DNA from: Ligustrum vulgare
Taxonomy: Eukaryota; Streptophyta; Magnoliopsida; Lamiales; Oleaceae
Assembly: GCA_963555705.1 (NCBI GenBank)
Contig: OY743182.1
Span: 55,317,092 to 55,381,091, forward strand
Direction of reading: 5' to 3'
Length of the DNA: 64,000 bases
Shown: in pieces, positions 14,660 to 54,282 of the stretch
How positions within the stretch are numbered: position 1 is the first letter of the stretch
Layout: the number at the start of each line of letters is the position of its first letter
Notes under the pieces: generated by a model
Told to the model about the DNA's origin: nothing
Database searches by the model: none
The model's input: only the letters and a program-made list of their open reading frames with translations
Position numbers and translations under genes: made by a program

Positions 14660-14892
14660 TTACGGCCGCAAGACAAATCATTACGGCCGTAAGAGCATGT
14701 TGAATCAGAAAAAAATAAGCAGAAAAGATGTTACGGCCGTAAGATATATCTTTACAGCCGTAACCCTCAAAAGGTGAAAAATGCGCAGAAACATCTTTAC
14801 GGCCGTAAATCAAAAGTTACAACCGTAACTTCAATTTTTGAGAAATCAGCAGAAACCTCTTTACGGCCGTAAAGGAAAACTTACGGCCGTAA
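14660..14892. promoter_or_regulatory. Paired-palindrome array TTACGGCCGTAA in U3
   Basis: Eight 12-mers start at 14660, 14681, 14731, 14752, 14797, 14817, 14861 and 14881. They form four pairs with in-pair spacing of 21, 21, 20 and 20 bp, and pairs recur every 64-71 bp. Five are exact palindromes. Three have one or two changes, all of the C-to-T or G-to-A type (for example CAGCCG, CAACCG). The linkers share a CAGAAA-type phrase. The position just upstream of the TATA box suggests a transcription-factor binding platform, which is inference. Confidence 0.75.
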
Positions 14893-14977
14893 GTCTCCAG
14901 TCAAAAATTCCATATTTTAAATTCTTTCCATAATTTTGGGATTTCTTGCTCCCAAAGCTAGGGCACGAAATTAAGGC

Positions 14978-14984
14978 TATAAAA
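14978..14984 (+). promoter_or_regulatory. TATA box of the solo LTR
   Basis: TATAAAA followed by AGGG, 86 bp after the last palindrome. In the related LTR at 52841-54282 the same position reads TACAAAA, apparently mutated. Confidence 0.6.
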
Positions 14985-15791
14985 AGGGAATTCTAGGACA
15001 GAAAAAGGTGTGAAAAAATTATTGAAAGAGGCGCGGCTCGCTTGCAGAATTGGAAGAAGAATTAAGCAACTCGAGAAGGTGAATCAAGAAAGAAAATTCT
15101 AGAATTCTTCATGACTATGCTCGGCTAAGCTTCCATACCTAGTTCGAAGGGGAAGTTGTATTTCATATCAATTTGTTATTGATTTTCCAAACTAGTAACG
15201 TTGTTCTAAATTCTTTACTTTGATTTGTTGGATTCTTATGCGTTTTTGATTTAATCAATGCAATTTTTTATTTGATTAAGGCCTTATCATTTAATGTGTT
15301 GTATTAAGATTTGCTATTTTGAATGATTGGATCCGTAAACATCTTTTTATTCAAATCATATTAGCAATTGGAAATTTAATATTTTCATAAAGAATTCCAA
15401 CTTAGGTTAATTGTCGTGAGCTTGTGTGATTGATAATCTAATTCATCCAAATTCTTCTCAACCAATATATAGTTGTTGTCTTAAATCTAAAGAGCTTGTT
15501 TTAGGTTATTCAATGGCTAATGTTTGATTAGAGAGCTTATTCTAATTAAATGCAATTAAGGTAGAATAGGAATAGTTAGAGCTTATTAACGTTTTTACTT
15601 TATTTTCACGATATTTACAATTCTTGAACTCGAAACCCCCCCCCCCCAATCTATTCTAATTGACAAAGCACTACTTTAGTTCCCGTTCCTCGTGGGATCG
15701 ACTCTTACTTCCGGTATTACAATCAAATCTGATAATTTGCGAGTAAGATATTTATTTATTATTTTGGTGCATTGCGACACGCATCACCACT

Positions 15792-17324
15792 AAAATTACT
15801 TTTTAGAATTGCAAAGGTAGATAAGCCCATTGTAAGGTTGAAAAACATGGCCTGGCATATCTAAGACAAATAGTATTTAAGCAAGACTCTCAAACAGAAT
15901 AAGAGATGCCTTTTGCTGTCCAGTATCATATAAGGTTTGCTCATAACATTAAAGTAATGACATTATTACATTATCAAATGAAATATTAATAATAAAATCA
16001 ATCCCTCTATCAGATAACCCAAAAAATTAACATAATGCAAGAATATCTCAGTACTCAGTACCATTTATGATTTAAAAAATGTTCCTTTTGATATGTCAGT
16101 CTCCAATTTCATTTGCTACCCTTCATAATGGATTAATATAGGGGAATAATTATCCTGTCCAGAACTTAATATGTTTGAATGTTTCTATAGGTTCCAATAG
16201 AACTCGCATTTTGCTCAGACTTATGCGTAAGATTAGTAACGTCTTCAGCATGTCAAAGCCGTCATAAGTGTTACTATAGAAAGAATTAATTTCATTAATT
16301 AGCTTACAATTCCCCAGAACATACGTGCCAAAGTAGTAGTTCCATGATCTAGTAATTCTTCAAAACGCATTTCCATCATCAAAACTCACAATAAATTTTT
16401 CTAATGTCATTGTCCATTTTGTCCAAAGTTCTATCTTAATTTAGCAAGTCCAATTTAGATGAGAGATAATTTCTAAAATACTGAATCTTAAAACTTTTTC
16501 AATGTCATTGTTCATGTGGCTATTTAAGGTCACTCTTCACAACCTCTTTTCTTCTAACTCAGACCTTTCTCTGTGCATGTGAGTGAGACATTATATCTTG
16601 TAACGTTCCGTATCAATAGAAAAATGACAAAGCAAATCAACAACCGGAAAATCAGACCTATTTAATCAATGTTTAAGCAAAATCACATTATCAATGAGAA
16701 ACCCCAATTCCCTCTTTTGTTTTCTTACAGCATTCCAGATTCAAAAAAAGAATCCATAGAAGTTAACAGAATCTACAGAAGTAATGAATATTTATAGAAG
16801 AGAGGTAAAATGAGAAGAAAAAATTAAACACCATAACTCAGAGAGAGCTTTGACTCTCCAATTGTGTTTATGCATAATGGGTTGAACCTGTTTGGCGACT
16901 CTTTCCAGAATATGTCAAGCTTCTCCTTCATTTGGCTTTCATTTTAGGGCCTTGATTTCCCTTAAATTATTCAAATCCCCCAAATCCACGTTTTCAACCT
17001 AACATTAAATTCTGGTAAACACAAATTACAGTCGATGTATGTGAAATTGCTATCGGATACAGAAAATTCAGAGAATCAATAAAGAAGAAGAAGAAGAAGA
17101 ACTTACTGAGTCCGTGCTACCCCATTATCGTCTTACTGTTCAGAATTTGGTAGGCTCTAACTCGTGCAGAACGAAGCTCTCGAAGAGGAGAATGGATCTA
17201 AGTATGAGTGATTGAGAAAAAGAGAATGACATGTGAAAGGCAGTGAGAAGCTTCTCGAGGAAGCTTTCATCCTCATTGCAGAAGAAAAATCAGGTAATAC
17301 TTTAGAATACTCTCAGCAGGCAAG
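15792..17324. other. AT-rich stretch without supported gene
   Basis: I see nothing that can be called a gene. An AGA trinucleotide run lies at about 17083-17102. Good splice-like sites occur on the minus strand (for example GTAAGTTC near 17100), so this could include leader exons of a minus-strand gene connected to the ORF at 17325-17546, but no reading frame confirms it. Confidence 0.35.
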
Positions 17325-17546
17325 TTAACGTGCAGTAACCGTGAGGGGTTCAAGAATTTGAAATCTAATTTCAAGCTTACTATACCCCTTCTCTCTAGCA
17401 GTCTCTGGTAGTAGTACCTCCACAATGTCCTCCTCGACGAAGTGCCCAAAAGCTGATTTCAAGCTCCCGGACTTCCTTATCTTCGCCGGAAGCTTCACCG
17501 GAATCTCACCAAAAGTCGGCTCATTATTAGAGTGTCCGTATAACAT
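17325..17546 (-). CDS. Unrecognised short ORF (73 residues), possible exon
   Basis: I do not recognise this protein. The frame starts at an ATG and stands out from its surroundings by higher GC content and a balanced, charged composition. Residues 11-50 contain the phrases FGEIPVKLPAKIRKSG and SAFGHFVEEDIVEVLLP. No domain, signal peptide or membrane segment is visible. A GTACTACT donor-like site lies within it, so it may be the first exon of a spliced gene or a remnant of one. No partner exon was found. Confidence 0.3.
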   Translation of the reverse strand: MLYGHSNNEPTFGEIPVKLPAKIRKSGSLKSAFGHFVEEDIVEVLLPETAREKGYSKLEIRFQILEPLTVTAR

Positions 17547-17636
17547 GACTTATCCTCTTGTTTTAAATTATCGATTTTTTCAATGTTGAGATGATAAAAT
17601 GTCTGTACTGCAATCTGTGAGGGTTTCAAGAACTGA

Positions 17637-18070
17637 GAGCATCTTTAAAAATGTTTGGGAAACAAGTTTTTAAACATATTTTTTCCTACACAATTTCTCA
17701 AATCACTTTTTAACCACACATATTTTCTCTCTTCAATTTTCAACCACACATTTTACCTAAAAAAACACAAAAAAATATGTTTTTAAACAAAAAACTTTTA
17801 ACAAACATGGGCTTCAACGCTGCAAGTTCGGTCCTGTTGTGAATAGTGCAACTTTGTAAGAGAGAGAAAGTAAAAGAAGAGAGAGAACAGAACGGTGAGA
17901 GAAAAGGGAAGAGAGAGAGAGAGGGACACATTTTTTCTCCAAAGATCTATGTACAAGTCGAGAAGTGGACCTTCAACCTGACTTTGTGGTGTATTTTTTA
18001 ATATTTTAATAATATTTTGATTTTCACGTGGGCAAAGATCTTGGACTGACACTTTGTGTTAAAGATGCTT
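17637..18070. mobile_element. MITE, GAGCATC family, TSD TGA
   Basis: 434 bp with inverted ends GAGCATCTTTAA and, at the right end on the other strand, AAGCATCTTTAA. TGA flanks it at 17634-17636 and 18071-18073. It contains the TTTGG-type repeat at 17651-17809 just inside its left end. It is the third copy of this family in the window. Confidence 0.65.
17651..17809. repeat. MITE-like repeat, TTTGG...CCAAA family, copy 3
   Basis: It begins ATGTTTGGGAAACAAG and ends with ACTTTTAACAAACAT, giving inverted termini. It also shares the internal TTTTTAACCACACAT phrase with the other two copies. It may be part of, or nested in, the GAGCATC MITE. Confidence 0.45.
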
Positions 18071-18073
18071 TGA

Positions 18074-20280
18074 GCGGAAGAAAAGGTAATGCCCGACCGG
18101 CCAATTTCAAATCAATATAGGCATTGCAACGTATCATGCACAGTTTTAGAGGCAATATTGGTTTGAATTTGAATTGCTAATTTTTTAGTTGAACAAATTT
18201 GATATATATATATATATATTTTAAGGGGACGGTTTTGGGGGAAGTTTGGGTGAGAATTTCTCTCCCCACTCTTATCTTTTTATATATTAAAAATAGATGA
18301 TTTTTATGGACCAGTATGATGACCAATCTCATGCAAGGAAATCCACAAACCACTCAACCGAAGAAGCTGCTCAATCAAATTTACTATAACCTCAAATAAC
18401 TTGCATTAGAAAGGTACTAAAAAACCATTGACAAGAAAGAAGGCAATCAAAAAATAAAATCAAGATTCTCAACTTCATATTATACTTAAAATTTTATATA
18501 ACTACCCCCCTCCCTCTCCCCCTCCCCCCTCTCGGCCCAAATAATGCTCAATTCCAGTACGTCAAAATTTTAATTCATCGATCAGAAGTCAATCAATTGT
18601 TTAAGCTCATCTCTTACTGCATGGTAGCAACATGCATTTATTGCCCCATTTATTGCCCAAGTGAGATTGCCATCAAAAGAGAAATTGTTAATAGTATAAT
18701 GTGCTTTATGAATAATAATCAATTACAATTAGATGTATATGTATATGTGTCTGGTGCATTTAGTGCTATGTTTTCACCCGCAATGGTAACGAGGTAAACA
18801 AAGAATCAAAGAATGTTACCATATATTAGTTCATATTAATTTATTTTAGCTTATATGTTTAGAAATACGAATTAGTTTGACATTTAAAATATGTTATATT
18901 ATGTCGATAGGTAAATTGCGGATTAAAATCGAACCAAACTGCAAAAAAAATGGTTTGGTTTGGTTTGAAAAAATGTCAAACCAATTGAAATGGTTTGGTT
19001 TGAAAATATGTCACAAACCGTCCAAATCAGACCGCGTTCACCCCTATTATTTTGTTTTCTAAATGAGTGAATATTATTTTATTTGTAAAATAACTTTTTT
19101 TTTTTAGAAATTTTTGTGATTTTTAGAATAATTTTTTATGTTTTAATTGAAACCGGTTTGATCCGGTTGGATATTTTGACCATTAACCTGTTATCTTTTT
19201 CAGTTCGAACTGGTTTCTGAGTTTTCGTTTTTTAAAACAGTAGTAAATAGGTGAGTTGACGACAATTTTTTTTTTCACCCATTACATTACTTACAAAATC
19301 AACAGCTACAATTTTGCCACGTTCATATGTTAATTTTTAATGTCGTGGAGATGCATGAATAATGATTGTCTCCGTGTTCAGGGGCAGACCAGGATTTCAT
19401 TTTAGTGGGAGGGGGGGGGGGGGGGGGCAAAGGGGTTCACAAACGAACAATTTTTAAATAAAATACCTATAAATTTGTTCTTTGCGAGTTTTTCATAATT
19501 TTTCCTACTAAAATAAACTAGTTATAATTAGACTCACAAATGAACTTCACAAAACACAAACCAAAAATCTTAAATTAAATCAAATCAACAAACCACAAAT
19601 CTCAACTTACAAAAATTCAAACAAAGCTAATTAGTAATCAAATCAATAAAAAATGTCCCCAATTCCAAATCAATATAAGTGGACAACAAGCCGTTAATCA
19701 CTAATTACAGTCATTAATCAATCTCATTTTCAGTTTTTTCACAATTTCAGATTCATAAATAAGTAAATATGCTCAAAAATGCCACTAAAAATGTGGAAAC
19801 CCTTTAGCGAAAAAAAAATGTGGAAACCCACTAACAGAATCAAATCCAACAAAGGAAAAGCAGAAATGAATAAATATTAATGTGGATTGGAGATGAGACC
19901 TCTGTAGTCGGAGCCAACATAACCCACGCGCGTTACGACTTTCTATTTACGAATGGGTTCCCATTTCTGGGCAGTGTTTGAAGGCGTCGCAAACTTCGTG
20001 GCAACTATGGGAGGCTCGACAGAAGATGAAGTGGAGACACGACACAAAGTTATTCTCAAATGTTCTTTGTGGCTTGCGAAGAGTATGTTAATTTTTCGTT
20101 TCAGACGTTGTGGGTTAGGGTGAGGACTGAGGAGTTTTGCTGCTTCAGTCGAGATTTATCAAATTTTTTTTTTTTTTTTGTTTGGGCTGGACTTGGGGCA
20201 ACCCAAAAGTCCAGTGCAGTCCATGGACCGTTCTGGGCTTGAACCAGCTTCGCCCCCATCAATGTCAACAAATATAATAA
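18074..20280. other. AT-rich stretch with simple repeats
   Basis: No gene is supported. It contains a TA run (about 18201-18222), C/T-rich DNA (18504-18536), AACCAAACC/GGTTTGG-rich DNA at 18.93-19.25 kb and a poly-G run (about 19409-19427). Confidence 0.4.
19381..20262. repeat. Possible DNA-transposon remnant with GGGGC ends
   Basis: The left edge reads GGGGCAGACCAGGATTT and the right edge, on the other strand, GGGGCGAAGCTGGTTC, an imperfect inverted terminal pair about 880 bp apart. No clear TSD and no transposase were seen. Confidence 0.3.
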
Positions 20281-22050
20281 ATCGTTCAATACAATTTTTT
20301 GATATTATAATTGTTTCAGTTCAAATTAAAACTACAACGACATATATATCATTTCGTTTCAAACATAACGACATTGATATCTTTGTATATCAAACTCACG
20401 AAAAACATAACGAGATCCATATTGATTCAGTACAATTTTGTTGACATTGGAATCGTTCCAATTCAAATCATAACTACAACATCATAGATATCGTTTCTTT
20501 TCATACATACGACATTAATGTCATTGTGCCACAAACTTACAAAACAACATAACGAGATCCACACAATTCCAATAAAATTTTGTTGACATTGAAATCGTTC
20601 TAGTTCAAATCATGACTGCGACGACATAGATATCGTTTCTTTTGAAGTAACATGACAATTATATCATTTTGGCTCAAAATGACGATTTGACTGTCCACGA
20701 TCACCAGACATGACTGACATACGTAGGACAACCGAAGAGGTCATCAAGTGGGTTTGATCTTGCTCAAAATAAAGTATTGTAAACCTTTGATATTCATATA
20801 TTTGTCTACCACATTCCAACTATTCCAATGAAAATAAAATATCTTCATTCACGCTCTTTCTAATCCATTCGAGTGGTATCAATCAACTTGTTGACCTCTT
20901 TCGATCGTTCTACTTATGTTGGAGGCATGTCAAGTGGTCGTGGACATTTGAATCAACGTTTTAGTTTGAACAATTGATATGATCCGGACCAGGCATAGAA
21001 GGGAGAAGTCAAGCCATCGAAAATACGACAGTGATCTACGAGAGAAGCGGATCAAGTCACGTGTTGGCACGAACCAAGAATCAAACCGGGTCACGTTGTT
21101 TCAAAAGGAAGAAAAAAGATGCAGCCGAGACAGCCACGCGATCACGTGGTGAAAATGAGCGCGCGATCGCGCGATGACATCAACATTCCACCCGAGAGAT
21201 TCAGGCGACTCCACACGATCGCTAAAGGTTTGCCTACGCGATCGCACGGTTGTGACGAAACCAGATTTTTGCGTTTTTTTAATTATTTAATGCTTTCTTT
21301 TATTATTTTCCATTTTTTAATTCTTAGCGGTTAGGGTTAGACGCATTTTTTACATTATATTATGAAGTTTCTATCCTTGTAAAGAATAGTTTTGATGATT
21401 ATTGATTAAATTGAGAGATTTTCTCTTGTTGAAAAGGTTGAGAATTCACTTTTTGTGTTCTTCAAAGAACAACCAAATGAATTTATCAAATATTGTGATA
21501 TATTTGTGGCGTTCCCATCAGAAACTTATCAAGGAAATTGACAAGTCCTTATAGTGTTTCGAAAACCTTGGATCTTTAATCTGCATCGTCGAATCTTCGC
21601 GTCGTGATTGTCGGGTCAATGTCCTATCGTCAATTTTTATCTTTTCCAGTTATTTTATTTTATTTTTTTCTTGTGTTTGTGTTTGGCTGAATCTGGATCT
21701 TTCCTATTATTGTGTCGTTTAATTCCGCGCTTCGATTCGTATCAACAATATAATTATCGTTTTTATAAAAAGAACTGATATCCATGTCATAGTTATTATC
21801 TGAACTGGAATGATTCCAATGTCGTTCAAATTATACTGAAATGATATGAATGTCATTATGTTATTTCGTGATCTTGATAAACGACAATAACATTGTCTTT
21901 TTTTAATAAAAAGAAACGATATTATATATGTCGTCATAAATATGATCATAATTGGAACGATTCTAATGTCGTTAAAATTGTATTGAAACGATATGAATAT
22001 CGTTATATTATTTTTTGGGTTTGATACACAACGATATCGTTATCTTATTG
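20281..22050. repeat. Fold-back repeat with tandem units in both arms
   Basis: The left arm (20281-20690) holds about three tandem units of roughly 142 bp (recurring AACGAGATCC, TTGTTGACATTG and ATCGTTCC phrases). The right arm (about 21750-22050) carries two such units in reverse complement (GGAACGATTC, GAAACGATAT phrases). The arms are separated by about 285 bp of original loop plus a solo LTR. This is the organisation of fold-back elements. No coding sequence was seen. Confidence 0.6.
20970..21749 (+). mobile_element. Solo LTR, TSD ACAAT, with GCGATCGC palindromes
   Basis: The 770-bp unit 20975-21744 runs from TGATATGATCC to GATTCGTATCA, with ACAAT on both sides (20970-20974, 21745-21749). 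Palindromic 14-mers related to CACGCGATCGCGTG start at 21135, 21160, 21212 and 21235, in two pairs spaced 25 and 23 bp, with the pairs 77 bp apart. A weak TATA-like stretch lies near 21356. No PBS or internal region follows, so it is a solo LTR. The parent family is not identified. Confidence 0.8.
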
Positions 22051-22497
22051 ATATATATTTTTTTTAAATTAGTGATAATATTTACGTTTCGATATTAATT
22101 CTTTATTTTAGATAAAATTAAAGTTTTAAAGTTATTAATTATTTTTATATCTTTAAATTATTGATTTTTTGAATTTAATGATAATAGTTACGTTTTGATA
22201 TTATCATTTTATACATTAGATTTAAAAAATTATATTTTTATATTTTTGTTATATAACAATCATTATTAGTAATCAACCAGTAATCTATACGTATTAAATA
22301 TTAAATTTATGTTAACAAAATAATTTTTCATTTAATAAGTTTATAAAATAATTTTTTGTTAATATAAAATGAAGTAAAATGTTGAACTTCAATTTTTTTT
22401 TTCAAAATATTTTTAGAAAACATTATTTATTAGATATAACTTATTAAACAAAGTGGTGTTGGTTCAAGCTGTTTGATTTTTAACCTTCTTAACTAAT
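22051..22497. other. Very AT-rich spacer
   Basis: Almost entirely A and T, with TTATTTT and AATTTA phrases. Nothing recognisable lies between the fold-back repeat and the Tat-lineage element. Confidence 0.5.
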
Positions 22498-22502
22498 GGT
22501 GC

Positions 22503-23090
22503 TGATGAACAGTAATTTTGTAAGGGCTCGAACACGACCATGATACATATACCCCGACCACGATCAATCATGATCTGGTTGTTGTTTCTCTCCCTCGAGC
22601 TATGTTTATCCCCCGAGGATCAATTGTCCCCGAGGATCCACATTCCTTCAAAAACGGTCGTATTGTCCTCGGGGTAATTTCTGCTCGGGGTGACTCTTAC
22701 GTCCCCGGACATAATCTGGTCTATCTTCCTAGTCCTAAGAGGGCTCGTTCCCTTTGGATTCCCATTCAAGGTTTACAACCCTATCCCTAACAATTAGGAG
22801 GATGGTTCCTAACGTGACTCTACCAATGAAGGTATTTCAGTCCTATTGTAACTCGTTTATATCTCTCTATAAATACATAATTCTCAAACACAATACAGAT
22901 AGACAATTCTTATTTTTCCAGTTTATAGCCTCTTGCATAAATTTTCTTCCTCTTTACTGACTTAAGCATCGGAGGGGCGGGGCGACGAGGACACACCTCC
23001 TCGCCTTTATTGCAGGTATTCAGAGTTCAAGTTCGTGCCAGTCTGCTGCTCGAGCTCGGAATATCTGAGGTACAATTTTTTGCATCATCA
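22503..23090 (+). repeat. 5' LTR of the Tat-lineage element
   Basis: 588 bp, TG...CA. A promoter-like TATAAATA lies at 22868-22875. It is rich in CTCGGGG and CCCCGAGG phrases in U3. It has a 5-bp GGGGC-type duplication near 22978 that is absent from the 3' copy. Confidence 0.92.
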
Positions 23091-23091
23091 T

Positions 23092-23108
23092 TGGCGCCGT
23101 CTGTGGGA
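23092..23108 (+). promoter_or_regulatory. Primer-binding site of the Tat-lineage element
   Basis: TGGCGCCGTCTGTGGGA starts one base after the LTR end. Its first ten bases match the TGGCGCCGTT-type plant PBS associated with tRNA-Asp except at the last position. The exact tRNA is not certain. Confidence 0.7.
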
Positions 23109-23124
23109 ACCAGAGCTAGAAGCC

Positions 23125-28520: not shown

Positions 28521-28838
28521 CGAAAGCCTTCCCCACGAGGAAGCACACAAAGTCTTGCCCACGAGCAAGCACTCGAAAGCCTTCCCCACGAGGAAGCATA
28601 CAAAGTCTTGCCCACGAGCAAGCACTCGAAAGCCTTCCCCACGAGGAAGCACACCAAGTCTTGCCCACGAGCAAGCACTCGAAAGCCTTCCCCATGAAGA
28701 AGCACACCAAGTCTTGCCCACGAGCAAGCACTCGAAAGCCTTCCCCACGGGAAGCACACCAAGTCTAGCCCACGAGCAAGCACTCGAAAGCCTTCCCCAC
28801 CGGGAAGCCCGCCAATCTTAGCCCGCGAGCAAGGCATT
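28521..28838. repeat. 53-bp tandem repeat, six copies
   Basis: Units start at 28521, 28574, 28627, 28680, 28733 and 28785. Each reads CGAAAGCCTTCCCCACGAGG followed by AAGCACAC(C/A)AAGTCTTGCCC and ACGAGCAAGCACT. Each unit itself has two halves built around a (C)CCACGAG(C/G)AAGCAC phrase. It lies just after the integrase stop. Open frames through it on both strands simply reflect the repeat. Confidence 0.9.
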
Positions 28839-28916
28839 CAAGTACTAACCCCGAGCATCACCAACAACACTTTCATCGTAATTACGATGTTTAATGATCG
28901 GGGTAACAAAAACGCT

Positions 28917-29371
28917 CGGGGTTATTACTTAATGTTCGCAAAATAATCCTTGATCGGGGTTATTACTTAATGTTCACAAAATAATCCTTGATCGGGGTTA
29001 GTGCTTAATGTTCATTAATAATCCTTTGCTCGGGGTTATTACTTGGCGTTAATTAATAATCCTTTGCTCGGGGATATTACTTGACGTTCATTAATGATCC
29101 TTTTCTCGGGGTTATTACTTAATGTTCGCAAAATAATCCTTGATCGGGGTTATTACTTAATGTTAACAAAATAATCCTTGATCGGGGTTAGTGCTTACTG
29201 TTCATTAATAATCCTTTGCTCGGGGTTATTACTTGGCGTTCATTAATAATCCTTTACTCGGGGATATTACTTGGCGTTCATTAATGATCCTCTTCTCGGG
29301 GTTATTACTTAATGTTCACTAATAATCCAAGCTCGGGGTTATTACTTGTGTTTACTATTAACCCCTCTGCT
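28917..29371. repeat. 38-bp tandem repeat, twelve copies, with 190-bp higher order
   Basis: Units beginning CGGGGTTATTACTT recur at 28917, 28955, 28993, 29031, 29069, 29107, 29145, 29183, 29221, 29259, 29297 and 29334. Units 1-5 and 6-10 match one to one in their private variants (for example GGTTAGTGC in units 3 and 8, GGATATTAC in units 5 and 10), so the array grew by duplicating a five-unit, 190-bp block. Confidence 0.9.
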
Positions 29372-29536
29372 CAAGGAACGTACATAATATTCATTATTGA
29401 TCCCGTGATCGGGGTTCAGACATTACCTTAAATTAATTGACGCTCGTACAACCACTGCTCGTACCCTTGATGTTCAAAATGCAAAATATTTCAATTGTGA
29501 TTATGTTCGGTACAAAAAGGGGTGGGGATACAAAAT

Positions 29537-39115: not shown

Positions 39116-39622
39116 TGTGGAAAATAAAGCCATTTGTTGAATTTGGTGAGCCAACTTTGTTGAATTTGGTAAGCCACCAATAGCTCACAAATTTAGCCTA
39201 CAATCTAGTCTATGTTCACACCTATTTTATTCCTTCCATTGTTGATTTTTTGTCCAAACTTTCCCTATAAATAGAGGGCAAAACCTCAGTGGAAAATGCA
39301 CCAAGTAGAGAGGAAAATAGAGAGTGAAAGTAGTAGAGAGAAATTTGTTAGAAGAGAGAAATATTAGAGAGAAATAAATTGTTTTCTCCTAAGTATTTTC
39401 CTACTTTGTTTTCTCCTATTATAAGAGAGGTTAAATATTGTTATCTCCTTATATTTAGAGAGAAGGTTGTTGTAATTCTCCTACTATAGTGAAATCCTCC
39501 TATACTTGCCCGTGGACGTAGCCATTATTGGTGAACCACGTAAATACTTGTGTTCCATTTTAACCGCATTTTCTCAATTCCACTATACTTGTTGACCAAC
39601 GTGATCCACGCCTTTCCTAACA
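39116..39622 (+). repeat. 5' LTR of copia element 1
   Basis: 507 bp, TG...CA, with a CCCTATAAATAGAGG promoter core near 39263-39277. Its left end faces the protease gene start. Confidence 0.93.
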
Positions 39623-39624
39623 AG

Positions 39625-39637
39625 TGGTATCAGAGCC
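39625..39637 (+). promoter_or_regulatory. tRNA-iMet primer-binding site, copia element 1
   Basis: TGGTATCAGAGCC lies two bases after the LTR end and is the standard initiator-Met PBS of plant LTR elements. Confidence 0.88.
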
Positions 39638-39780
39638 TGGTTACATCTTTTGAAATTCTTAGTATGCTCTGTGGTTGCAGCTTTGTCTGATCTTCCACAT
39701 CAGAAAAGATTTCTTGAGATTGTTTTGCGTAGGGTTGGTGTTCACTATCACTCGGTATTATTACCAAGTCGTGAACAAAA

Positions 39781-42700
39781 ATGGCAGCAAAGTATGAGGT
39801 TGAAAAGTTCAATGGGAACAATTTCTCGTTATGGAAAATGAGAATAAAAGCAGTTTTGAGAAAAGATAACTGCTTGGCGGCAATTGGAGAGAGACCCGCG
39901 GATATCACTGACGATGACAAGTGGAACGAGATGGATAGCAATGCAATTGCTAATCTACACTTAGCACTTGCTGATGGAGTATTGTCAAGTGTGGAGGAAA
40001 AGAAAACAGCAAATGAGATATGGGACACCCTAACGAAGCTCTACGAGGCCAAATCATTACACAACAAAATTTTCCTAAAGAGACGGCTTTACACCCTTCG
40101 GATGATGGAGTCAACTACAGTGACAGACCACATCAACACCCTCAACACTCTATTTTCACAGCTCACATCAATGGGCCATAAAATAGAGGCAGGGGAACGT
40201 GCTGAAATTCTACTTCAAAGTCTACCAGATTCGTATGATCAACTCATCATCAACTTAACTAACAACATAGAAGATCTAGTCTTCGATGATATTGCAGCTG
40301 CGGTTCTTGAAGAGGAAAGTCGGCGCAAGAACAAGGAGAACGGACTATCTAGTTCACAGCAGGCGGAAGCCTTGACGATGATGAGAGGGAGATCAACGGA
40401 ACGTGGCCCCAGTGGGAGTCATACCCAAGGTAGATCTAAATCCAGAAGTAAGAAGAATGCCAAGTGTCATTACTGTGGCAAGAAAGGGCACTTAAAAAGG
40501 GATTGTTGGAGTCTTAAGAGAAATGAAGAAGCCAAAGGGAAGGCACATGAGATACCAAAAGCTCAGGGTTGTGTAGCAAGCACCTCATATGATGGAGAAA
40601 TTTTATACAGCGAGGCAACGACTGTTGTTGAAGGCAGAAAGCATTTCACCGATGTCTGGCTCATCGATTCAGGAGATACTCTACAAGAAGGAGAAGCATC
40701 TGTTGCATCGGCAGGTTCAGTAGAAGAATTAACAATGATGTGGCACCGAAAACTTAGCCACATGTCTGAACGTGGTATGAAAATTCTCTCTGAACAAGAT
40801 CTTCTTCCAGGGCTCAAAAATGTATCATTACCCTTTTGTGAGCATTGTATCACTAGTAAGCAGCACAGATTGAAGTTTAGCACTTCTACTACTAGAAGTA
40901 AAGCTATCTTGGAATTGGTTCATTCTGATGTTTGGCAAGCACCGGTTATGTCCCTAGGAGGTGCAAAATATTTTGTATCTTTTATTGATGATTACTCCAG
41001 GAGATGTTGGGTGTATCCAATCAAGAAGAAGGCTGATGTGTTTGAAGTCTTCAAAATCTACAAAGCGCGGGTAGAACTTGAATCTGAGAAGAAGATCAAG
41101 TGTTTGAGGACGGACAATGGAGGAGAATATACTGGTAATGAATTTAATATTTTTTGTCAACAAGAAGGTATTAAAAGACATTTCACGACGGCATATACTC
41201 CACAACAAAATGGAGTGGCAGAGCGGATGAACAGAACATTGTTAGAAAGAACGAGAGCAATGTTGAGAACTGCAGGGTTAGCTAAATCATTTTGGGCTGA
41301 AGCAGTCAAAACCGCCTGTTATGTGATCAACCGGTCACCATCAACCGCGATTGATCTGAAGACGCCGATGGAGATGTGGACAGGGAAGCCAGCCGATTAT
41401 TCTCACTTACATGTCTTTGGAAGTCCTGTGTACGTTATGTACAATGCCCAGGAAACATCAAAGTTGGATTCAAAATCCAGAAAATGCATTTTCTTGGGGT
41501 ATGCTGATGGAATCAAGGGGTACCGCCTGTGGGATCCCACTGCCCACAAGGTGATAATCAGCAGAGACGTGATATTCACGGAAGGCAAGGTACAAGAAAA
41601 TGATAGCACTTTAAAAGAACCAGAAACTACTACGGTTGAAGTTGAAGTTGAAAATAGAGAAGAACAAGAAGTCTGGGATTCTTCTGAAGCAGTACCGGAG
41701 CATGAAGAAGGAGAACAAGCTGAGTTTACAGTTCCTGAAATCAGACGATCAACTCGAGAGAGGAGAGAACCAGCTTGGCACTCTGAGTACATTATGGAGA
41801 GCAATGTTGCATACTGTCTACTGACGGAGGATGGAGAGCCATCAACTTTCCATGAGGCTTTAAATAGTCAAGAAGTTTCGCAGTGGATGGAAGCTATGCA
41901 GGAAGAAATTGAGGCTCTTCATAAAAACAAGACATGGGATCTTGTTTCGCTACCACAAGGAAGGAAAGCCATTGGAAATAAATGGGTCTACAAGATCAAA
42001 CGTAATGGAAATGACCACGTGGAGCGGTATCGTGCTAGACTGGTGGTAAAGGGATATGCTCAGAAAGAAGGCATTGACTTCAACGAAATATTCTCTCCTG
42101 TTGTTCGACTCACGACAGTTCGAGTATTATTGGCGATGTGTGCTACATTAGACTTGCACCTGGAGCAGTTAGATGTGAAAACTGCATTTCTTCATGGTGA
42201 GCTTGAAGAAGAAATTTATATGCTCCAACCAGAAGGTTTTGAAGAAAAAGGAAAAGAGAACTTGGTTTGCAGGTTGAACAAATCTCTATACGGTCTCAAA
42301 CAGGCGCCGAGGTGTTGGTATAAGAGATTTGATTCCTTCATTATGAGCCTTGGAAACAACAGACTTAGTGCAGATCCTTGTGCTTATTGCAAGAGATTTG
42401 GTGATGGTAATTTCATTATCTTGCTGTTGTATGTTGACGACATGTTGGTAGCAGGCCCCAACAAAGATTGTCTTAAAGATTTGAAGGCACAGTTGGCTAG
42501 GGAGTTTGAAATGAAGGACTTGGGAACCGCAAACAAGATTCTAGGGATGCAAATTCACCGAGACAGAAATAATAGGAAGATTTGGCTTAGTCAGAAGAAC
42601 TACTTGAAGAAAATCTTGCAACGCTTCAATATGCAAGATTGTAAGCCAATTTCTACCCCTCTTCTTATTAATTTCAAGTTATCCTCAAGTATGAGTCCTA

Positions 42701-43395
42701 GCAGTGAAGCAGAGAGGATGGAGATGTCTCGAGTACCGTATGCATCAGCAGTGGGTAGCCTAATGTTTGCTATGATCTGTACAAGACCAGACATTGCACA
42801 AGCAGTGGGAGCGGTTAGTAGATATATGGCAAATCCTGGTAGAGAGCATTGGAATATGGTGAAGAGGATCCTAAGATATGTCAAGGGTACCTCAAATGTT
42901 GCATTATGCTATGGAGGATCAGAATTTAATGTTAGAGGCTATGTAGATTCAGATTATGCAGGTGATCCTGATAAAAGCAAATCCACCACTGGATATGTGT
43001 TTACTCTTGCTAGAGGAGCTGTAAGCTGGGGTTCAAAACTGCAGTCTATCGTGACTACTTCTACGACGGAAGCAGAATATGTGGCGGCTACACAAGCTAG
43101 AAAAGAGGCAATATGGTTGCAAATGTTAATGGAAGAACTCGGACACAAACAAGAGAAGATTTCTCTATTTTGTGATAGTCAGAGTGCTTTGCACTTAGCA
43201 AAGAATCCAGCATTTCATCCAAGGACGAAACATATTAGAGTACAATATCACTTTGTACGAGAGAAGGTGGAAGAAGGAAGTGTGGATATCCAGAAGATTC
43301 ATACGGAGGACAACCTAGCGGATATGTTCACAAAGCCGATCAACACTGATAAGTTCACATGGAGCCGATCCTCTATCGGCCTAGCAGAAGCATAA
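39781..43395 (+). CDS. Copia Gag-Pol polyprotein with protease deletion (1204 residues)
   Basis: The ORF is open end to end. Gag (UBN2-type, about residues 1-195) precedes a CCHC knuckle CHYCGKKGHLKRDC near residue 230. The protease begins WLIDSG near 296 but then jumps straight to DTLQEGE, a sequence that normally follows the protease, so roughly 110 or more residues are missing in frame. The GAG-pre-integrase region follows (MWHRKLSH). Integrase has VHSDVW, RTDNGGEY and QNGVAERMNR. RT has LLLYVDDMLVAG. RNase H has YVDSDYAGDPDKSK and STTEAEYVA. The C-terminus DMFTKPI is family-typical. Without protease it could not mature its own particles and would depend on another copy. The low LTR divergence indicates recent movement. 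Confidence 0.92.
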   Translation: MAAKYEVEKFNGNNFSLWKMRIKAVLRKDNCLAAIGERPADITDDDKWNEMDSNAIANLHLALADGVLSSVEEKKTANEIWDTLTKLYEAKSLHNKIFLKRRLYTLRMMESTTVTDHINTLNTLFSQLTSMGHKIEAGERAEILLQSLPDSYDQLIINLTNNIEDLVFDDIAAAVLEEESRRKNKENGLSSSQQAEALTMMRGRSTERGPSGSHTQGRSKSRSKKNAKCHYCGKKGHLKRDCWSLKRNEEAKGKAHEIPKAQGCVASTSYDGEILYSEATTVVEGRKHFTDVWLIDSGDTLQEGEASVASAGSVEELTMMWHRKLSHMSERGMKILSEQDLLPGLKNVSLPFCEHCITSKQHRLKFSTSTTRSKAILELVHSDVWQAPVMSLGGAKYFVSFIDDYSRRCWVYPIKKKADVFEVFKIYKARVELESEKKIKCLRTDNGGEYTGNEFNIFCQQEGIKRHFTTAYTPQQNGVAERMNRTLLERTRAMLRTAGLAKSFWAEAVKTACYVINRSPSTAIDLKTPMEMWTGKPADYSHLHVFGSPVYVMYNAQETSKLDSKSRKCIFLGYADGIKGYRLWDPTAHKVIISRDVIFTEGKVQENDSTLKEPETTTVEVEVENREEQEVWDSSEAVPEHEEGEQAEFTVPEIRRSTRERREPAWHSEYIMESNVAYCLLTEDGEPSTFHEALNSQEVSQWMEAMQEEIEALHKNKTWDLVSLPQGRKAIGNKWVYKIKRNGNDHVERYRARLVVKGYAQKEGIDFNEIFSPVVRLTTVRVLLAMCATLDLHLEQLDVKTAFLHGELEEEIYMLQPEGFEEKGKENLVCRLNKSLYGLKQAPRCWYKRFDSFIMSLGNNRLSADPCAYCKRFGDGNFIILLLYVDDMLVAGPNKDCLKDLKAQLAREFEMKDLGTANKILGMQIHRDRNNRKIWLSQKNYLKKILQRFNMQDCKPISTPLLINFKLSSSMSPSSEAERMEMSRVPYASAVGSLMFAMICTRPDIAQAVGAVSRYMANPGREHWNMVKRILRYVKGTSNVALCYGGSEFNVRGYVDSDYAGDPDKSKSTTGYVFTLARGAVSWGSKLQSIVTTSTTEAEYVAATQARKEAIWLQMLMEELGHKQEKISLFCDSQSALHLAKNPAFHPRTKHIRVQYHFVREKVEEGSVDIQKIHTEDNLADMFTKPINTDKFTWSRSSIGLAEA

Positions 43396-43463
43396 GCAGC
43401 ATGAGAATGGCAAGTGTGGGAAGGATGGCATGTTACAACAAAAGTGACTTTAAGTGGGAGAAA

Positions 43464-43970
43464 TGTGGAAAATAAAGCCATTTGTTGAATTTGGTGAGCC
43501 AACTTTGTTGAATTTGGTAAGCCACCAATAGCCCACAAATTTAGCCTACAATCTAGTCTATGTTCACACCTATTTTATTCCTTCCATTGTTGATTTTTTG
43601 TCCAAACTTTCCCTATAAATAGAGGGCAAAACCTCAATGGAAAATGCACCAAGTAGAGAGGAAAATAGAGAGTGAAAGTAGTAGAGAGAAATTTGTTAGA
43701 AGAGAGAAATATTAGAGAGAAATAAATTGTTTTCTCCTAAGTATTTTCCTACTTTGTTTTCTCCTATTATAAGAGAGGTTAAATATTGTTATCTCCTTAT
43801 ATTTAGAGAGAAGGTTGTTGTAATTCTCCTACTATAGTGAAATCCTCCTATACTTGCCCGTGGACGTAGCCATTATTGGTGAACCACGTAAATAATTGTG
43901 TTCCATTTTAACCGCATTTTCTCAATTCCACTATACTTGTTGACCAACGTGATCCACGCCTTTCCTAACA
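43464..43970 (+). repeat. 3' LTR of copia element 1
   Basis: 507 bp, differing from the 5' LTR at three positions by eye. It is preceded by the purine-rich AAGTGGGAGAAA. Confidence 0.93.
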
Positions 43971-44886: not shown

Positions 44887-44888
44887 AG

Positions 44889-44899
44889 TGGTATCAGAG
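44889..44899 (+). promoter_or_regulatory. tRNA-iMet primer-binding site, copia element 2
   Basis: TGGTATCAGAG lies two bases after the LTR end. Confidence 0.85.
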
Positions 44900-49353: not shown

Positions 49354-49495
49354 GAATCAATATTCAGTCCTTGTTTAACTTTTGAAAAACTAATACTTTG
49401 TTTTTTCCTTTTACAGGTATTTATGAGCAAGATGATATTGAATTGGTTGCTCAAATCCACTAATGGTGCACTCAAGTTCGTAGCAAGGTGGAGAA

Positions 49496-50343
49496 TGAAG
49501 AAGTGCTACTCTCTTGACTTAATAAGCCAAACACGTTTTCTCTTTATTGGGCTGAAAATGGGTAAAGCCCAAAACTTGGGCTGCTGGACTATATATCTAT
49601 TCCCAGGCTTCATTCAATTGATATATCGGCTGAAATAGAAAAGAAGCACAGACAGAACACAAGCAGACTGAAAAAAAAGAAAAGAAAAATTAACGCAGCT
49701 TCTTCCCTTCTCTCGATCGGGTGATTTTCTTAGGGCTTGAAGGGTGTTTGATTTTTCTTGGTGAGAAGCAATAAAGGCAGTTGGGCAGAACAAAAGGCAA
49801 CAGAACGCATCTCTCTTCTCTCTCAAACCAGACGACATTTTAGGGCACGAAGGTGTTCGTACGATTCTTCTTGGTGAAGATAAATTGGTGCTCTCTCTTC
49901 CTTTCTTCTTTTCTTGGTGATTAGATAGATTGCAATAGGTGTAATTTTGTGAAAGGGAGTATTTCTTGGTGATATCTCGGCCGATTTGTAGTACCGATTG
50001 TAGCTTTGGTTTTGGGTTTCTCTTGGTGAATATAGTGTGGTTTACAATAGGTGTATTCCATTAGTGAAGGGAGTATTTCTTGGTGAAATATTGTGTGTTG
50101 TCTGTCGTGCCTCTGCTTCGATTTTTTGGATTTTGAGAAATTTTGGGATTGATTGTAATTTGCTTTGAACATTGCTTTGTACCTAGTGGATTTGAGCGTG
50201 AATCCAAATTTAATGGATTGTTCAACGAGGGAGTAGGAAATTCTTTGAATTACCGAACTTCCAGGGTCTTCGGACCGAAAATTCTTTGTGTTCTTGCGTT
50301 ACTTTCATGTTATTTTTCGTTATTGTTCATTTTCGATCCAACA
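49496..50343 (+). repeat. 3' LTR of copia element 2
   Basis: 848 bp, preceded by the purine-rich AAGGTGGAGAA and followed by AAAGA. Confidence 0.92.
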
Positions 50344-50348
50344 AAAGA

Positions 50349-50700
50349 GCACTTTGTTGTATAGTTAAATTAAATATCAGTAAAGAAGTTTGAAGGGGTA
50401 ACTTAGAATTTTCCTTGGCGACAAAAGTACATTTTTAGCCTTTTCTATATATCTATCTTGTTAAACCCGAGATAGCAATAATAAATACAAATATTCACAA
50501 AACTTTCCTATTTACAAGCTTGCAGAGCTTTTTCGAGTCAAGCCAGGATTCTTGTTAAAGATAAAGAGATGCAACGCAACACGAGACTTAAACTTGTTCT
50601 GCTGCTGTTTCAGCTTCCGAAAGGTAGTAAAAACAGTAAATTCCATGTTATCCTCGCTCGCTCCAGACCTTGGAAAAAAATCCAAAGTTCCACAAAGTCA

Positions 50701-50731
<31 letters not shown>

Positions 50732-50993
50732 ACGGTAAGAAGAGTGAAGCCTGTACCTAAAAAACCTATAGAATCTTACACGTAGCAGCAGCACGAGCAC
50801 TTATATTTGTTTTATTAAGCACCAAAATTTATTTACGTCACCATGACTAAATCTGATATCTTTGAAATCGGAAGGGTACTGCCTTTTCTAAAACTGACAC
50901 GTCAATGCATCTGATTTTGTGGGAAGTTGAGCAATTTTGTCTCCGTCTCCTGGAAGTACTGAACCAAATAGGGTGTATGAGTTTCTCCATTCT
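50349..50993. other. Spacer upstream of the second gypsy element
   Basis: Probably native DNA that once lay directly upstream of the protease gene. It has no convincing ORF. A TAT trinucleotide microsatellite of about ten units lies at 50701-50731. Confidence 0.5.
50701..50731. repeat. TAT trinucleotide microsatellite
   Basis: About ten TAT units without interruption. Confidence 0.85.
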
Positions 50994-51015
50994 TGATGAT
51001 TAGCTAGGCTTATAA

Positions 51016-51354
51016 AGAATTCTGGACCCGAGCCAACCCATGCTATCGAACCCTTTTGATGTGATCCAGACCACGGATACAAGTCCGCACAAAGATCCGT
51101 TGAAGATCCGAGGAGGGCCGATGACTCGATTGCAGACAAAGAGGGCCAAGGAAGCAATGGACAAGTTAGTTCAAGAAACAATGGTCAAAACAATGTTCGT
51201 GTCATCGAAAGAAACAAGTTCCATGTTGGGACCGAGCCAAAACGACGAGTGGATCAACCTCATTCAAGCCGTCAAAGAAGATTGCCAAATTTCAAGAATT
51301 ACGGCCGTAATTCATAATTCTCACGGCCGTAACCAACTTGCTGCTGAAAACTGA
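51016..51354 (+). pseudogene. Gypsy Pol C-terminal tail encoded inside the LTR
   Basis: The frame opens after a stop at 51013-51015 and reads RILDPSQPMLSNPFDV, then DPLKIRGGPMTR and TKRAKEAMDKLVQET. This resembles the extreme C-terminus of some plant Ty3/gypsy polyproteins. Because the segment lies within the LTR, pol of the intact element probably runs into its 3' LTR. In this 5' copy it is not connected to pol and is inert. The last part of the frame crosses the first palindromes and may not be protein. Confidence 0.5.
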
Positions 51355-51531
51355 ATTTTTGAAGAAATTGGACTTACGGCCGTAACTAATATTAATCACG
51401 GCCGTAACGCAGCCTCGGATCAAAAACAGAAATTTCAGAATTAAGGCTTACGGCCGTAAAAGGAGTCTCACGGCCGTAACGGTGAAACAGAATGAGTCTT
51501 ACGGCCGTAAGGAAATTAGTCACGGCCGTAA
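51299..51531. promoter_or_regulatory. Paired-palindrome array in the gypsy 5' LTR
   Basis: Eight 12-mers start at 51299, 51321, 51374, 51396, 51448, 51468, 51499 and 51520. In-pair spacing is 22, 22, 20 and 21 bp, and pair spacing 75, 74 and 51 bp. The first member of every pair is TTACGGCCGTAA and the second is TCACGGCCGTAA. The array ends about 93 bp before the TATA-like box. The LTR sequence around it is unrelated to the Athila-type LTRs that carry the same motif. Confidence 0.75.
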
Positions 51532-51932
51532 ATTCATATACGCGTGATTTTATTTAATTATTTCCTTATTTTTAAGTATTTGTCTCCTAATTTAATTAGA
51601 ACTCTTAAACCTAGTTTTGACTCTATTTATAGGGATGTAATTTTCATTATTCAATAGACAACTTTGATATTATTATTGAGAGGCAATTTGCTTTCATACT
51701 TTATTCTTCATTGAATAAAATCCGAACTTGCGAGTTTAATTCTTGTTTGTTCAAATCTTGCGTGAGATTTACTTTTATTGTGATCAAGAGGTCAGCATAT
51801 CTATTGATTGTATTGGTTGCTTGGTTCAATTAATTTGAATCAATCTCTAAATCGTGGTTCTTTGGCATTCTTGGGTCGATTCCAATAATTTGTGGGTTGC
51901 GTAGCTACAATTGCTACGTGGTTTGCATCATC

Positions 51933-51944
51933 TGGTATCAGAGC
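51933..51944 (+). promoter_or_regulatory. tRNA-iMet primer-binding site, interrupted gypsy element
   Basis: TGGTATCAGAGC lies two bases after the LTR end. Confidence 0.85.
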
Positions 51945-52507
51945 TTAGGCTCCAAAAATCAAGGTTATATCTTTGTTTTGTTTTCTTGAGTCTTCTTTAA
52001 TCTTGTTCTTCGTGTTCTTCCAGTTCTTGAGTCTTTAATCCAAAAAATGTCACAAAAAAATTCAATAGTCGTTATTTCCTTCGTTTGTTATCCAAATTAA
52101 ATTTCGTTTGTTTCATCTTTCTCGGAGTTGAATTTTCGAGAAATCAAAAAAAAAAAAAAACGAAAATTCTCAGTCCAATTACAATAGCAGTTATTTGATT
52201 TCCAAAAAAAATATATTCTTGACTCAATCCTAGTTTCCATAAAAATGTCAAGTTCTATATCGAGTCAAGTTCCATTCTCGAAAGGTCTTCTTTGAGTTTT
52301 CCAAACAGTTCATAAAATTCTCACTCTTACTCGATTTGAATCATTCGGGCTTAAACTTGTTTGAGTTCGGGTTCGTTCTTTGAAGCAATTGGGGTGAAAG
52401 CCATTGAGTGGAAAAAGGCAGAGAGGTGAGATCAATAGAGGGTAAAAGCCAAATTTGAGTGATACACGAGCGAAATACACGTGAGGCATATAATATTTAG
52501 CTTTAGG

Positions 52508-52840
52508 ATGTCTGAACAATCTGCTGCTACAAAAAATAACGATCGAGTCAACATGACGGAAGAGATGGTACAACGGTTTGAGTGGTTGTTTGGGGATGTG
52601 TTAGGTAGATTAGAAAGGCTTGAGCAACCTCGGGAAGTGCCTAATGCCCGTAGGCAAGGTGGGAAAGGTCGTAGAGTAGAGGAGATCGATGAGAATGAAG
52701 AAGGTAGTGATTTTGACAATAGAGTAGTTAGGCATGGAAGAAGGGATAGAGATCTTGGTGGCGATAGGATGGATGGTAGTATGAGCAACATCAAAATGAC
52801 AATTCCGTCATTCAAGGGTAGGAGTGATCCGGAAGCATAC
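52508..52840 (+). pseudogene. Gag N-terminus of the interrupted gypsy element
   Basis: ATG at 52508 opens MSEQSAATKNN. An acidic and arginine-rich stretch follows, and then TIPSFKGRSDPEAY, the start of the retrotransposon gag domain. The frame is cut by the LTR boundary at 52841 after 111 codons. It is the N-terminal part only, so no function is expected. Confidence 0.8.
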
Positions 52841-54282
52841 TGGTGCGTGTCGCAATGCACCAAAATAATAAATAATTCCTTACTCGCTAAATATTAATTG
52901 ATAATGTAGTAGTGAGAGTAAGGGTCGATCCCACGAGGAACGGGAACTAAAATAGTGCTTTGTCAATTAGAATAGATGGGGGGTTTTCGAGTTCAAATAT
53001 TGGAAATAACGTGAAAATAAAATAAAAACGTAAATTAGATAAAACAGAAGTCAATTATTTGCAAACCCTAGTTCTCAGGTTCAGTTGTATTCTATCGCAA
53101 TGTTCTCGCTTTCCAAGTAACGCGTGTTCAAATTCCCTATTTGATTTATCACCCGTAAATAGTTAATAAGTTCTAACTATTTCTATTCTTCCTTAATTGT
53201 ATTTAATTAGAATAAGCTTTCTAATCAAACATTAGCCATTGAATAACCTAAAACAAGCTCTTTAGGTTTAAGACAACAACTATGTATTGGTTGAGAAGAA
53301 TTAGGGTGAATTAGATTATCAATCACATAAGCTCGTGACAATTAACCCAAGTTGAAATTCTTTATGAAAATATTAAATTTCCAATTGCTACTATGATTTG
53401 AATAAACAGACAATTACGGATCCAATCATTCAAAATAGCAAATCTCAATACAACAAATTAATTGATAAGGCCTTAATCAAATAAAGAATTGCATTGATTG
53501 AATTAAAAACGCATAAGAATCCAACAAATCAAAGTCAAGAACTTAGAACTACGTTACTAGTTTGGAAAAGCAATAAAACAAATTGATATAAAATACAACT
53601 TCCCCTTCGAACTAGGTATGGAAGCTTAGCCGAGCATAGTCATGAAGAATTCTAGAATTTTCTGTCTTGATTCACCTTCTCGAATTTCTGAATTCTTCTT
53701 CCAAAAATTCAAACAAGCCGCGCCTCTTTTCAATAATTATCCCCTTTTTCTTGTCATGAAATTCTCTTTTTGTAGCCTCAATTTCGTGCCCTAGCTTTGG
53801 GACCAAGAAATCCCAAATTATGGAAAGAATTGAAATAAGGAAATTTTTTACTTGAATAGTTACGGCCGTAACTATCCATTTACGGCCGTAATTGGGTTTC
53901 TGCGTATTTTTCACAAAGTGAGGTTACGGCCGTAACTTATTATTTACGGCCGTAATTTGGGTTCTACTGATTTTCTACTTTTGAGGTTTACGGCCGTAAT
54001 GGATATGTCTTACGGCCGTAAATCTTTTCTGCTCATTTTTTTCCTGTTTCAACATGCGCTTACGGCCGTAAATATTTTTCTTGCGGCCGTAAATCTTATT
54101 TGCACCTAAGTCCCCAAACTTCAGTTTTTAGTGCAATTTGGTCCTTTTTTCTTCTTTTCTCTTCTTTTATGATCCTATACAATATAAAACATAAAATGCA
54201 TTAATAATACTTAAATAGAATCACATTATGGTATATTCAAGGATATAAACATATAAAATAAACGTTAATACAACACTTATCA
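52841..54282 (-). repeat. 3' LTR of the Athila-type element
   Basis: 1442 bp, ending ACACTTATCA on the plus strand (TGATAAGTGT on its own strand) and starting TGGTGCGTGTCGC. It is homologous to the solo LTR at 14471-15786 but carries an extra segment of about 120 bp at roughly 53040-53160 that the solo copy lacks. Confidence 0.85.
53860..54092. promoter_or_regulatory. Paired-palindrome array in the Athila-type LTR
   Basis: Eight 12-mers start at 53860, 53880, 53924, 53944, 53988, 54010, 54060 and 54081. In-pair spacing is 20, 20, 22 and 21 bp, and pair spacing 64, 64 and 72 bp. Seven are exact TTACGGCCGTAA and the last reads TTGCGGCCGTAA. Confidence 0.75.

Follow-up and report, generated by a model that had tools for sequence, protein, structure and literature searches.

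Oriented arrays of paired palindromes in the long terminal repeats and interior of Ty3/gypsy retrotransposons of Ligustrum vulgare

Palindrome arrays in the window and across the assembly

The stretch of Ligustrum vulgare DNA considered here (64,000 nucleotides; GenBank assembly GCA_963555705.1, contig OY743182.1, positions 55,317,092 to 55,381,091 of the forward strand; hereafter the window) carries several retrotransposons, and three of their long terminal repeats (LTRs) hold arrays of paired copies of the 12-bp palindrome TTACGGCCGTAA. These are a solo LTR and a 3' LTR of Athila type and the 5' LTR of a Ty3/gypsy element. An earlier examination of the letters alone (the original prediction) placed four pairs in the U3 region of each, upstream of TATA-like boxes, and proposed that they form a platform to which a dimeric factor docks on one face of the DNA. 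This article describes the organization and distribution of the arrays, which we consider to be candidate promoter-proximal activator modules.

A motif scan of the window, in which a near match is TTACGGCCGTAA with no more than two mismatches, yields 29 matches against 1.13 expected, a number that none of 100 shuffles reached. The three arrays are borne out, each with eight sites in four pairs, as are the in-pair offset of 20-22 bp in all three and the recurrence of pairs mostly every 64-75 bp, with measured steps of 71/66/64, 75/74/51, and 64/64/72. The same palindrome does not recur throughout, however, as the second member of each pair in the gypsy LTR is TCACGGCCGTAA; nor are all arrays in U3, since a fourth (59731-59872) lies outside any LTR (Table 1).

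Exact 12-mers were counted across the 1.385-Gb assembly, with the same letters reversed as control, giving 74,995 copies of TTACGGCCGTAA compared with 14. Exact pairs at offsets of 20-22 bp number 10,815 (~3,600 per offset), compared with 12,301 at offsets of 23-52 bp (~410 per offset, some spanning an intermediate site), so that pair spacing is non-random. Local arrangement was studied in 20 stretches of 10 kb (cited below by L numbers) holding all exact TTACGGCCGTAA copies listed on contig C1 up to 857,583, which together with the window amount to 264 kb; as 200 kb of these were picked because of the motif, the sample tells that copies cluster in arrays, not that arrays are rare or common. 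Of the 83 exact copies present in these 264 kb, every one has another site (no more than three mismatches) less than or equal to 120 bp away, and a partner at 19-24 bp accompanies 77; sampled LTR arrays elsewhere contain 3-8 sites each. On the abundance of the motif outside LTRs, a condition set by the original prediction, this largely motif-chosen sample bears only in part: 83/83 copies stand in arrays, and the array in the Athila interior lies outside an LTR.

A de novo scan for palindromes with four or more sites, including two offsets of 20-25 bp, was applied to 21 sources. It recovered TACGGCCGTA in 17 of them, CGCGATCGCG in two (three arrays), CGGTCGACCG in one and a doubtful AGCTCGAGCT in one, and no palindrome arrays in five block-shuffled sets; with 1.13 matches expected in the window, a chance origin is ruled out. 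The CGGTCGACCG-type array (L026:83-175) has five palindromes in steps of 20-21 bp, of which two deviate by a single base. Arrays of GTATCGATAC-type words were also seen, with offsets of 13, 31, 21, and 50 in L021:6158-6295 and of 12, 51, and 12 in L018:209-293.

Table 1. Positions of the arrays and associated features in the window.
Feature	Position	Strand	Remarks
Solo Athila-type LTR	14471..15786	+	Flanked by 5-bp target duplication CCACT
Four palindrome pairs in U3 of solo LTR	14660..14892	+	Motif scan
TATA box CTATAAAAAG	14977..14986	+	Starts 85 bp past solo-LTR array
LTR stretch, group-A backbone, array of CGCGATCGCG type	20975..21670	+	78-83% to segments of L016/L022
Two CGCGATCGCG-type pairs	21137..21246	+	Offsets 25, 52, 23
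Ty3/gypsy 5' LTR	50994..51930	+	iMet-type primer site next, at 51933
Gypsy-LTR array, four pairs, each TTACGGCCGTAA then TCACGGCCGTAA	51299..51531	+	Motif scan
TATA-like CTATTTATAG	51623..51632	+	Starts 92 bp past gypsy array
Primer binding site TGGTATCAGAGC	51933..51944	+	Sequence read
Athila-type 3' LTR, reverse orientation	52841..54282	-	
Four pairs in U3 of Athila-type 3' LTR	53860..54092	-	Motif scan
Polypurine tract TGTGGGGGGATT adjoining Athila-type 3' LTR	54283..54294	-	
Second array, two CGCGATCGCG pairs	56747..56853	.	Offsets 23, 52, 22
Env-like open reading frame pieces	57690..58793	-	Position; weak PF20167 Transposase_32 matches below Pfam cut-off
Putative splice acceptor TTTTGCAG/GA	58776..58785	-	Directly before ATGGCTCC (58757-58769)
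Putative splice donor CAAG/GTATGC, leader exon	59546..59555	-	
TATA-like TTTTAAAAGG	59704..59713	-	17 bp past internal array
Fourth array, between pol and env-like open reading frame	59731..59872	-	Offsets 21, 42, 46, 21
Athila-type pol open reading frame (protease, RVT_1, RNase H, integrase)	60063..63998	-	Cut at window end

Two other features of the window may be mentioned. A young-looking Ty1/copia element (39116-43970; RVT_2, 39775-43392), with a 1206-aa open frame and LTRs 99.4% identical, has no motif match in its LTRs, and two minisatellites (28521-29416, units of ~53 and ~38 bp) directly follow a gypsy pol that includes an additional RNase H (RVT_3).

Host lineages and composition of the module

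Thirty-four arrays were sorted by flanking similarity into groups A (14), B (6), C (11), and D (3). Groups A and B occupy the LTRs of gypsy elements, group C represents Athila-type LTRs, and group D lies in the interior of Athila-type elements. Groups C and D are assigned to the Athila lineage by the gypsy pol of window 60063-63998 and a TGGCGCCGTTGCCGGGGA-type primer site, read in L023. The word TGGTATCAGAGC beside the window's gypsy LTR we take to be an initiator Met tRNA (iMet) primer site, and a site of this type stands at the junctions read in L010, L016, L017, L019, L022, and window 51930. It was not seen at the junctions read in L013 and L028, where the LTR ends were probably cut short; these two were placed in group A on flank similarity alone, and their short elements contain open frames of 347 and 363 aa (L013:3850-4890, L028:4572-5660) without a Pfam match. 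Group-A elements are short, and gypsy pol is carried by group B (L010, L025): L010 encodes an RVT_1 pol with gypsy RNase H and integrase domains, and L025 includes an SH3_Tf2-1 domain. Over 300 positions, the protease open reading frame (ORF) of L022 shares 49% identity with the pol of L010. A chromodomain, the mark of chromoviruses at the integrase C terminus, was not matched at E<=1 in the ORF pieces of L010 and L025, which may end before it; groups A and B are described here only as iMet-primed Ty3/gypsy. L014, whose pol carries RVT_3, was considered as Tat-type and left unassigned, its array being oppositely oriented in our reading.

The pol proteins of iMet-primed gypsy and Athila are 31% identical over 780 aligned positions. 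When the arrays and their 100-bp flanks were compared with motifs masked (E<=0.01), groups A and B gave 37 matches and are therefore homologous LTRs, whereas A/B against C/D, and C against D, gave none. The predicted unrelatedness of gypsy and Athila-type LTRs is thereby supported, and homology of the two along their whole length is rejected as far as arrays and flanks go. As the masked sequences cannot be aligned, the motif stands in three contexts: the A/B LTRs, the Athila LTRs, and the Athila interior.

Along the direction of transcription, the unit comprises CAG, 8 bp, a palindrome, 8-11 bp, and a second palindrome. The position of CAG was compared in 65 modules from 19 arrays, hand-chosen to represent all 34. 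It begins at exactly -11 relative to the first palindrome in 33 modules, against an average of 0.86 and a maximum of 7 in shuffles, distributed as 12/23 in group A, 3/16 in B, 12/20 in C, and 6/6 in D; the next commonest position, -14, accounts for five. A further set of 36 places, five of them exact repeats and some sharing families, was drawn from C1 between 1.3 and 6.6 Mb, beyond the 20 sampled stretches. There, CAG occurs at -11 on one strand in 23 of 30 linkers and on both strands in none (shuffle mean 0.74, maximum 5); one more linker without CAG brings the overall figure to 23/31. Sense-strand variants are likewise unequal, with T2>C found 43 times and A11>G five times, and 34 of the 43 T2>C changes sit in second members (59 pairs). 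The one-sided CAG and this asymmetry show that the module is polar.

Spacers in the 59 pairs measure 9 bp (33), 8 bp (15), 10 bp (9), or 11 bp (2), and adjacent offsets cluster at 20-23, 29-32, 42-46, and 50-54. All 365 pairwise distances taken together have a peak period of 10.5 bp. Eight layouts, chosen by us as different architectures, have inter-pair gaps in phase at 10.5 bp (P=0.001 vs uniform gaps), and their 151 pairwise distances peak at 10.55 bp (P=0.00025 vs redrawn inter-pair gaps), although the true weight of this test is smaller because the layouts are related within lineages. Site spacings thus match a period of ~10.5 bp approximately and imperfectly.

Two consecutive self-complementary sites are also able to pair with each other, so that each pair could fold in RNA as a 12-bp stem with an 8-11-nt loop and serve in packaging or as a signal for small RNAs; in maize Copia families, hotspots of small-RNA mapping coincide with LTR regions rich in palindromes (PMC5311732). 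The partners do not covary, however, as 640 of 708 stem positions pair compared with 639.9 for reshuffled partners, and the stem-loop was rejected on this ground. The most frequent variant, TCACGG in second members, would moreover place a C-A mismatch in the sense RNA, and folding leaves the spacing of separate pairs and the position of CAG unexplained, making an RNA-level role very unlikely.

Downstream of the arrays, CTATAAAAAG starts 85 bp past the last site in 5/11 Athila LTR arrays (L020, both of L023, L027, and window 14660), while TATTTATA starts 93-99 bp downstream in all six group-B arrays and 122-135 bp downstream in 11/14 of group A. In the Athila-type 3' LTR of the window, the TATA position holds a degraded CTACAAAAAG. 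The distance of ~90 bp originally proposed therefore fits two of the three window LTRs (85 and 92 bp) but not group A, nor the Athila LTRs without an intact CTATAAAAAG. None of the LTR TATA words occurs within 260 bp downstream of the three group-D arrays.

The internal Athila array and exchange of palindromes

The internal array is placed after the pol stop and is followed by TTTTAAAAGG, a pyrimidine-rich stretch, the donor-like CAAG/GTATGC, and, 0.77 kb on, an acceptor-like TTTTGCAG/G and then the ATG that opens the env-like ORF, a label that rests on position and on PF20167 matches below the cut-off. Across the genome, a first look gave 1,791 candidates for this internal region; 40 of them were scored, and 12 were read, the window's own copy among them. 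Most of the other copies read have a further site compared with the array at 59731-59872. Six of the 11 others were aligned across the splice sites, and the donor is kept in 6/6 and the CAG/G acceptor in 5/6, the acceptor of L030 having diverged and that of L040 being CTTTCACAG/G. In L012, a palindrome pair inside an Athila-like element (2596-2628) precedes a polypurine tract GTGTGGGGGG, perhaps an additional one. Across the 12 copies, identity is 94.3% in palindrome columns, 89.2% in other array columns, and 94.3% in the preceding columns, which are mostly the end of pol. CpG is kept in 106/118 palindrome cells compared with 177/226 others (P=0.0075). Constraint on the internal palindromes is thus suggested with moderate support.

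An LTR stretch of the window (20975-21670) has the backbone of group A and an array of a different palindrome, CGCGATCGCG. Ahead of the array, 93 bp align at 82-83% with L016/L022, and after it 189 bp align at 81% with L016. Twenty copies of this LTR were examined among 41 matches listed, and the original TTACGG type appears in none of the 20. By our matching rule, offsets of 25, 52, and 23 recur in 11 copies and of 24, 52, and 23 in one; another adds a site upstream of the majority layout, and in the remaining seven, sites are lost or displaced. A CAG 17 bp ahead of the palindrome centre, the equivalent of -11 in the TTACGG type, accompanies the second pair of the window copy; of the 18 copies with a recognised last pair, 12 have it as well. 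It does not occupy this position in the first pair of the window copy or at 56747, where a second CGCGATCGCG array stands. A third such array is found in L009. Exact CGCGATCGCG pairs at offsets of 20-25 number 1,106 genome-wide, and all 50 places listed are at 23 or 24. In whichever direction the change ran, a similar layout with a different palindrome is present on a homologous LTR backbone.

These observations bear on a neutral history, in which an old LTR array without present function was spread by tandem duplication and recombination between elements. In its favour, homology links the A and B LTRs, the Athila array shows partial duplication of its units (53859-54097 matches itself at ~64 bp, 75% identical), and distant Athila families are described as recombining in Arabidopsis (PMC2410132). 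Palindromes, spacing, and CAG nevertheless persist where no similarity outside the motifs is found, between gypsy and Athila as well as between Athila LTR and interior, and a homologous LTR keeps a similar layout with other palindromes; descent without function is therefore, in our judgement, improbable.

A second alternative is that the arrays are anti-silencing targets, through which an element-derived or element-specific protein lifts repression in the manner of VANC, palindromes changing with their protein. The exchange on a homologous LTR resembles the family-specific, tandemly growing VANC targets, VANC6 motifs are found also in the unrelated AT9TSD1 (both from the accessible part of PMC5735166), and CpG-containing sites are somewhat better retained here. 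On the other hand, one palindrome serves two gypsy lineages and also short elements without pol, and a Pfam search of 23 ORFs detected no element-encoded DNA-binding protein, several of them (including those of L013 and L028) being without any Pfam match. VANC targets as described in that part of the source are, in addition, not dyad pairs before a TATA box. An anti-silencing role is accordingly considered unlikely.

Interpretation and comparison with known systems

Dyad symmetry, strict pairing, a position before TATA boxes, a second place within one element, and exchange of the palindrome set are together best fitted by the docking platform first proposed. We consider, with a probability of roughly 0.6, that each array acts as an activator module close to the promoter, bound by a dimeric factor and with sites that can be swapped as a set. 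Each palindrome would bind the factor as a dimer, and two dimers about two helix turns apart beside the fixed CAG would form an oriented complex, usually repeated two to four times. The LTR array would drive the genomic RNA from the TATA box ~85-135 bp downstream, and from the internal Athila array a spliced RNA for the env-like ORF would arise. Elements may shift to another factor or specificity when all their palindromes are replaced and the layout is mostly retained. Binding, dimerisation, and activation are what we infer from these arrangements; since the site is common to two gypsy lineages, a host transcription factor would be the most likely candidate.

Several observations weigh against activator modules of this kind. 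CAG is missing from -11 in 32 of 65 modules, group B having it in 3 of 16; intact CTATAAAAAG is absent from 6/11 Athila LTR arrays and TATTTATA from 3/14 arrays of group A; and the internal TATA-like box lies 17 bp from its array. The internal identity gap derives in part from badly aligning A/T runs in the other array columns, the difference in CpG retention is small, and families inside one lineage are related, hence the counts are not independent. With respect to phase, the best period is 10.9 for adjacent offsets and 11.0 for inter-pair gaps, CGCGATCGCG palindromes pair at 22-25 bp, and gaps of 44 bp correspond to 4.2 turns, so that binding on 'one face' of the DNA can be upheld only as an approximation. 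No known factor was matched to the palindrome, NAC sites being rejected as its identity because of their opposite half-site order.

As a rule, the regulatory sites of an LTR element appear specific to its family, whereas here one composite site with a measurable grammar crosses lineages, stands at two places of one element, and includes a palindrome with ~75,000 exact copies. A broader and tentative proposal, less likely than not, is that an oriented enhancer grammar arose convergently in different gypsy lineages: CAG-8 bp-palindrome-9 bp-palindrome, set on a lattice of about 10.5 bp and serving both the LTR and an internal promoter. Its palindromes would be cassettes that change together and track a co-evolving or paralogous dimeric factor; elements would then be grouped by binding specificity and not by descent. 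The module offers a direct bait for finding the binding factor, and through palindrome exchange the co-evolution of elements with a binding protein becomes open to test. Should the host encode the factor, its sites, in the tens of thousands, may also buffer or rewire host genes.

A literature search for TTACGGCCGTAA surfaced only a protease-engineering paper. Searches on palindromic repeated motifs before TATA in gypsy LTRs returned PMC2829016 alone, and those on convergent U3 sites returned no report, subscription papers being mostly outside coverage in both cases. A looser search likewise brought up no account of such arrays, judged by the titles and abstract openings of the papers listed. 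Among known systems, VANDAL elements likewise have dense arrays of short motifs in non-coding parts, the motifs differing between related families; in the accessible part of PMC5735166, however, these elements encode their own VANC protein, and the motif YAGTATTAY is arrayed in one orientation with no dyad pairs described. Palindromic NAC sites also involve a dimeric plant factor, and the half-sites here hold the CGT[G/A] core; the known palindrome CGTN7-8ACG has the opposite half-site order (PMC4081100), and TTACGG was not found in the main text of that paper.

The closest likeness is to the palindromes termed RM in Sireviruses, which in the accessible part of PMC2829016 are described as Sirevirus-specific Ty1/copia LTR palindromes with a CGG-CCG core, absent from that paper's classic retrotransposons. 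As given there, different elements have different palindromes (CGGTCGACCG is the RM printed for a Vitis Sirevirus), eight or more copies lie mostly in the upper LTR half upstream of TATA, and extra copies upstream of env resemble the internal Athila array, for which the env-like label is weak. The window LTR arrays similarly have a CGGCCG core and eight sites each, with TATA 85-92 bp downstream in 2/3. In contrast, they belong to Ty3/gypsy elements with RVT_1 pol (L010 and window 60063-63998) rather than to Ty1/copia (RVT_2), and are strictly paired and polar, with CAG at -11 and a measured phasing of ~10.5 bp. One palindrome is moreover common to two lineages and is exchanged, on a homologous LTR, with one that lacks the CGG-CCG core. 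Pairing, polarity, a CAG element, and exchange are not reported in the accessible part of the Sirevirus account. By analogy, therefore, the arrays appear to work like Sirevirus RMs but are not Sirevirus RMs; occurring outside Ty1/copia, with pairing, polarity, CAG, and exchange, they are better regarded as a variant of the RM-like kind than as the RM itself.

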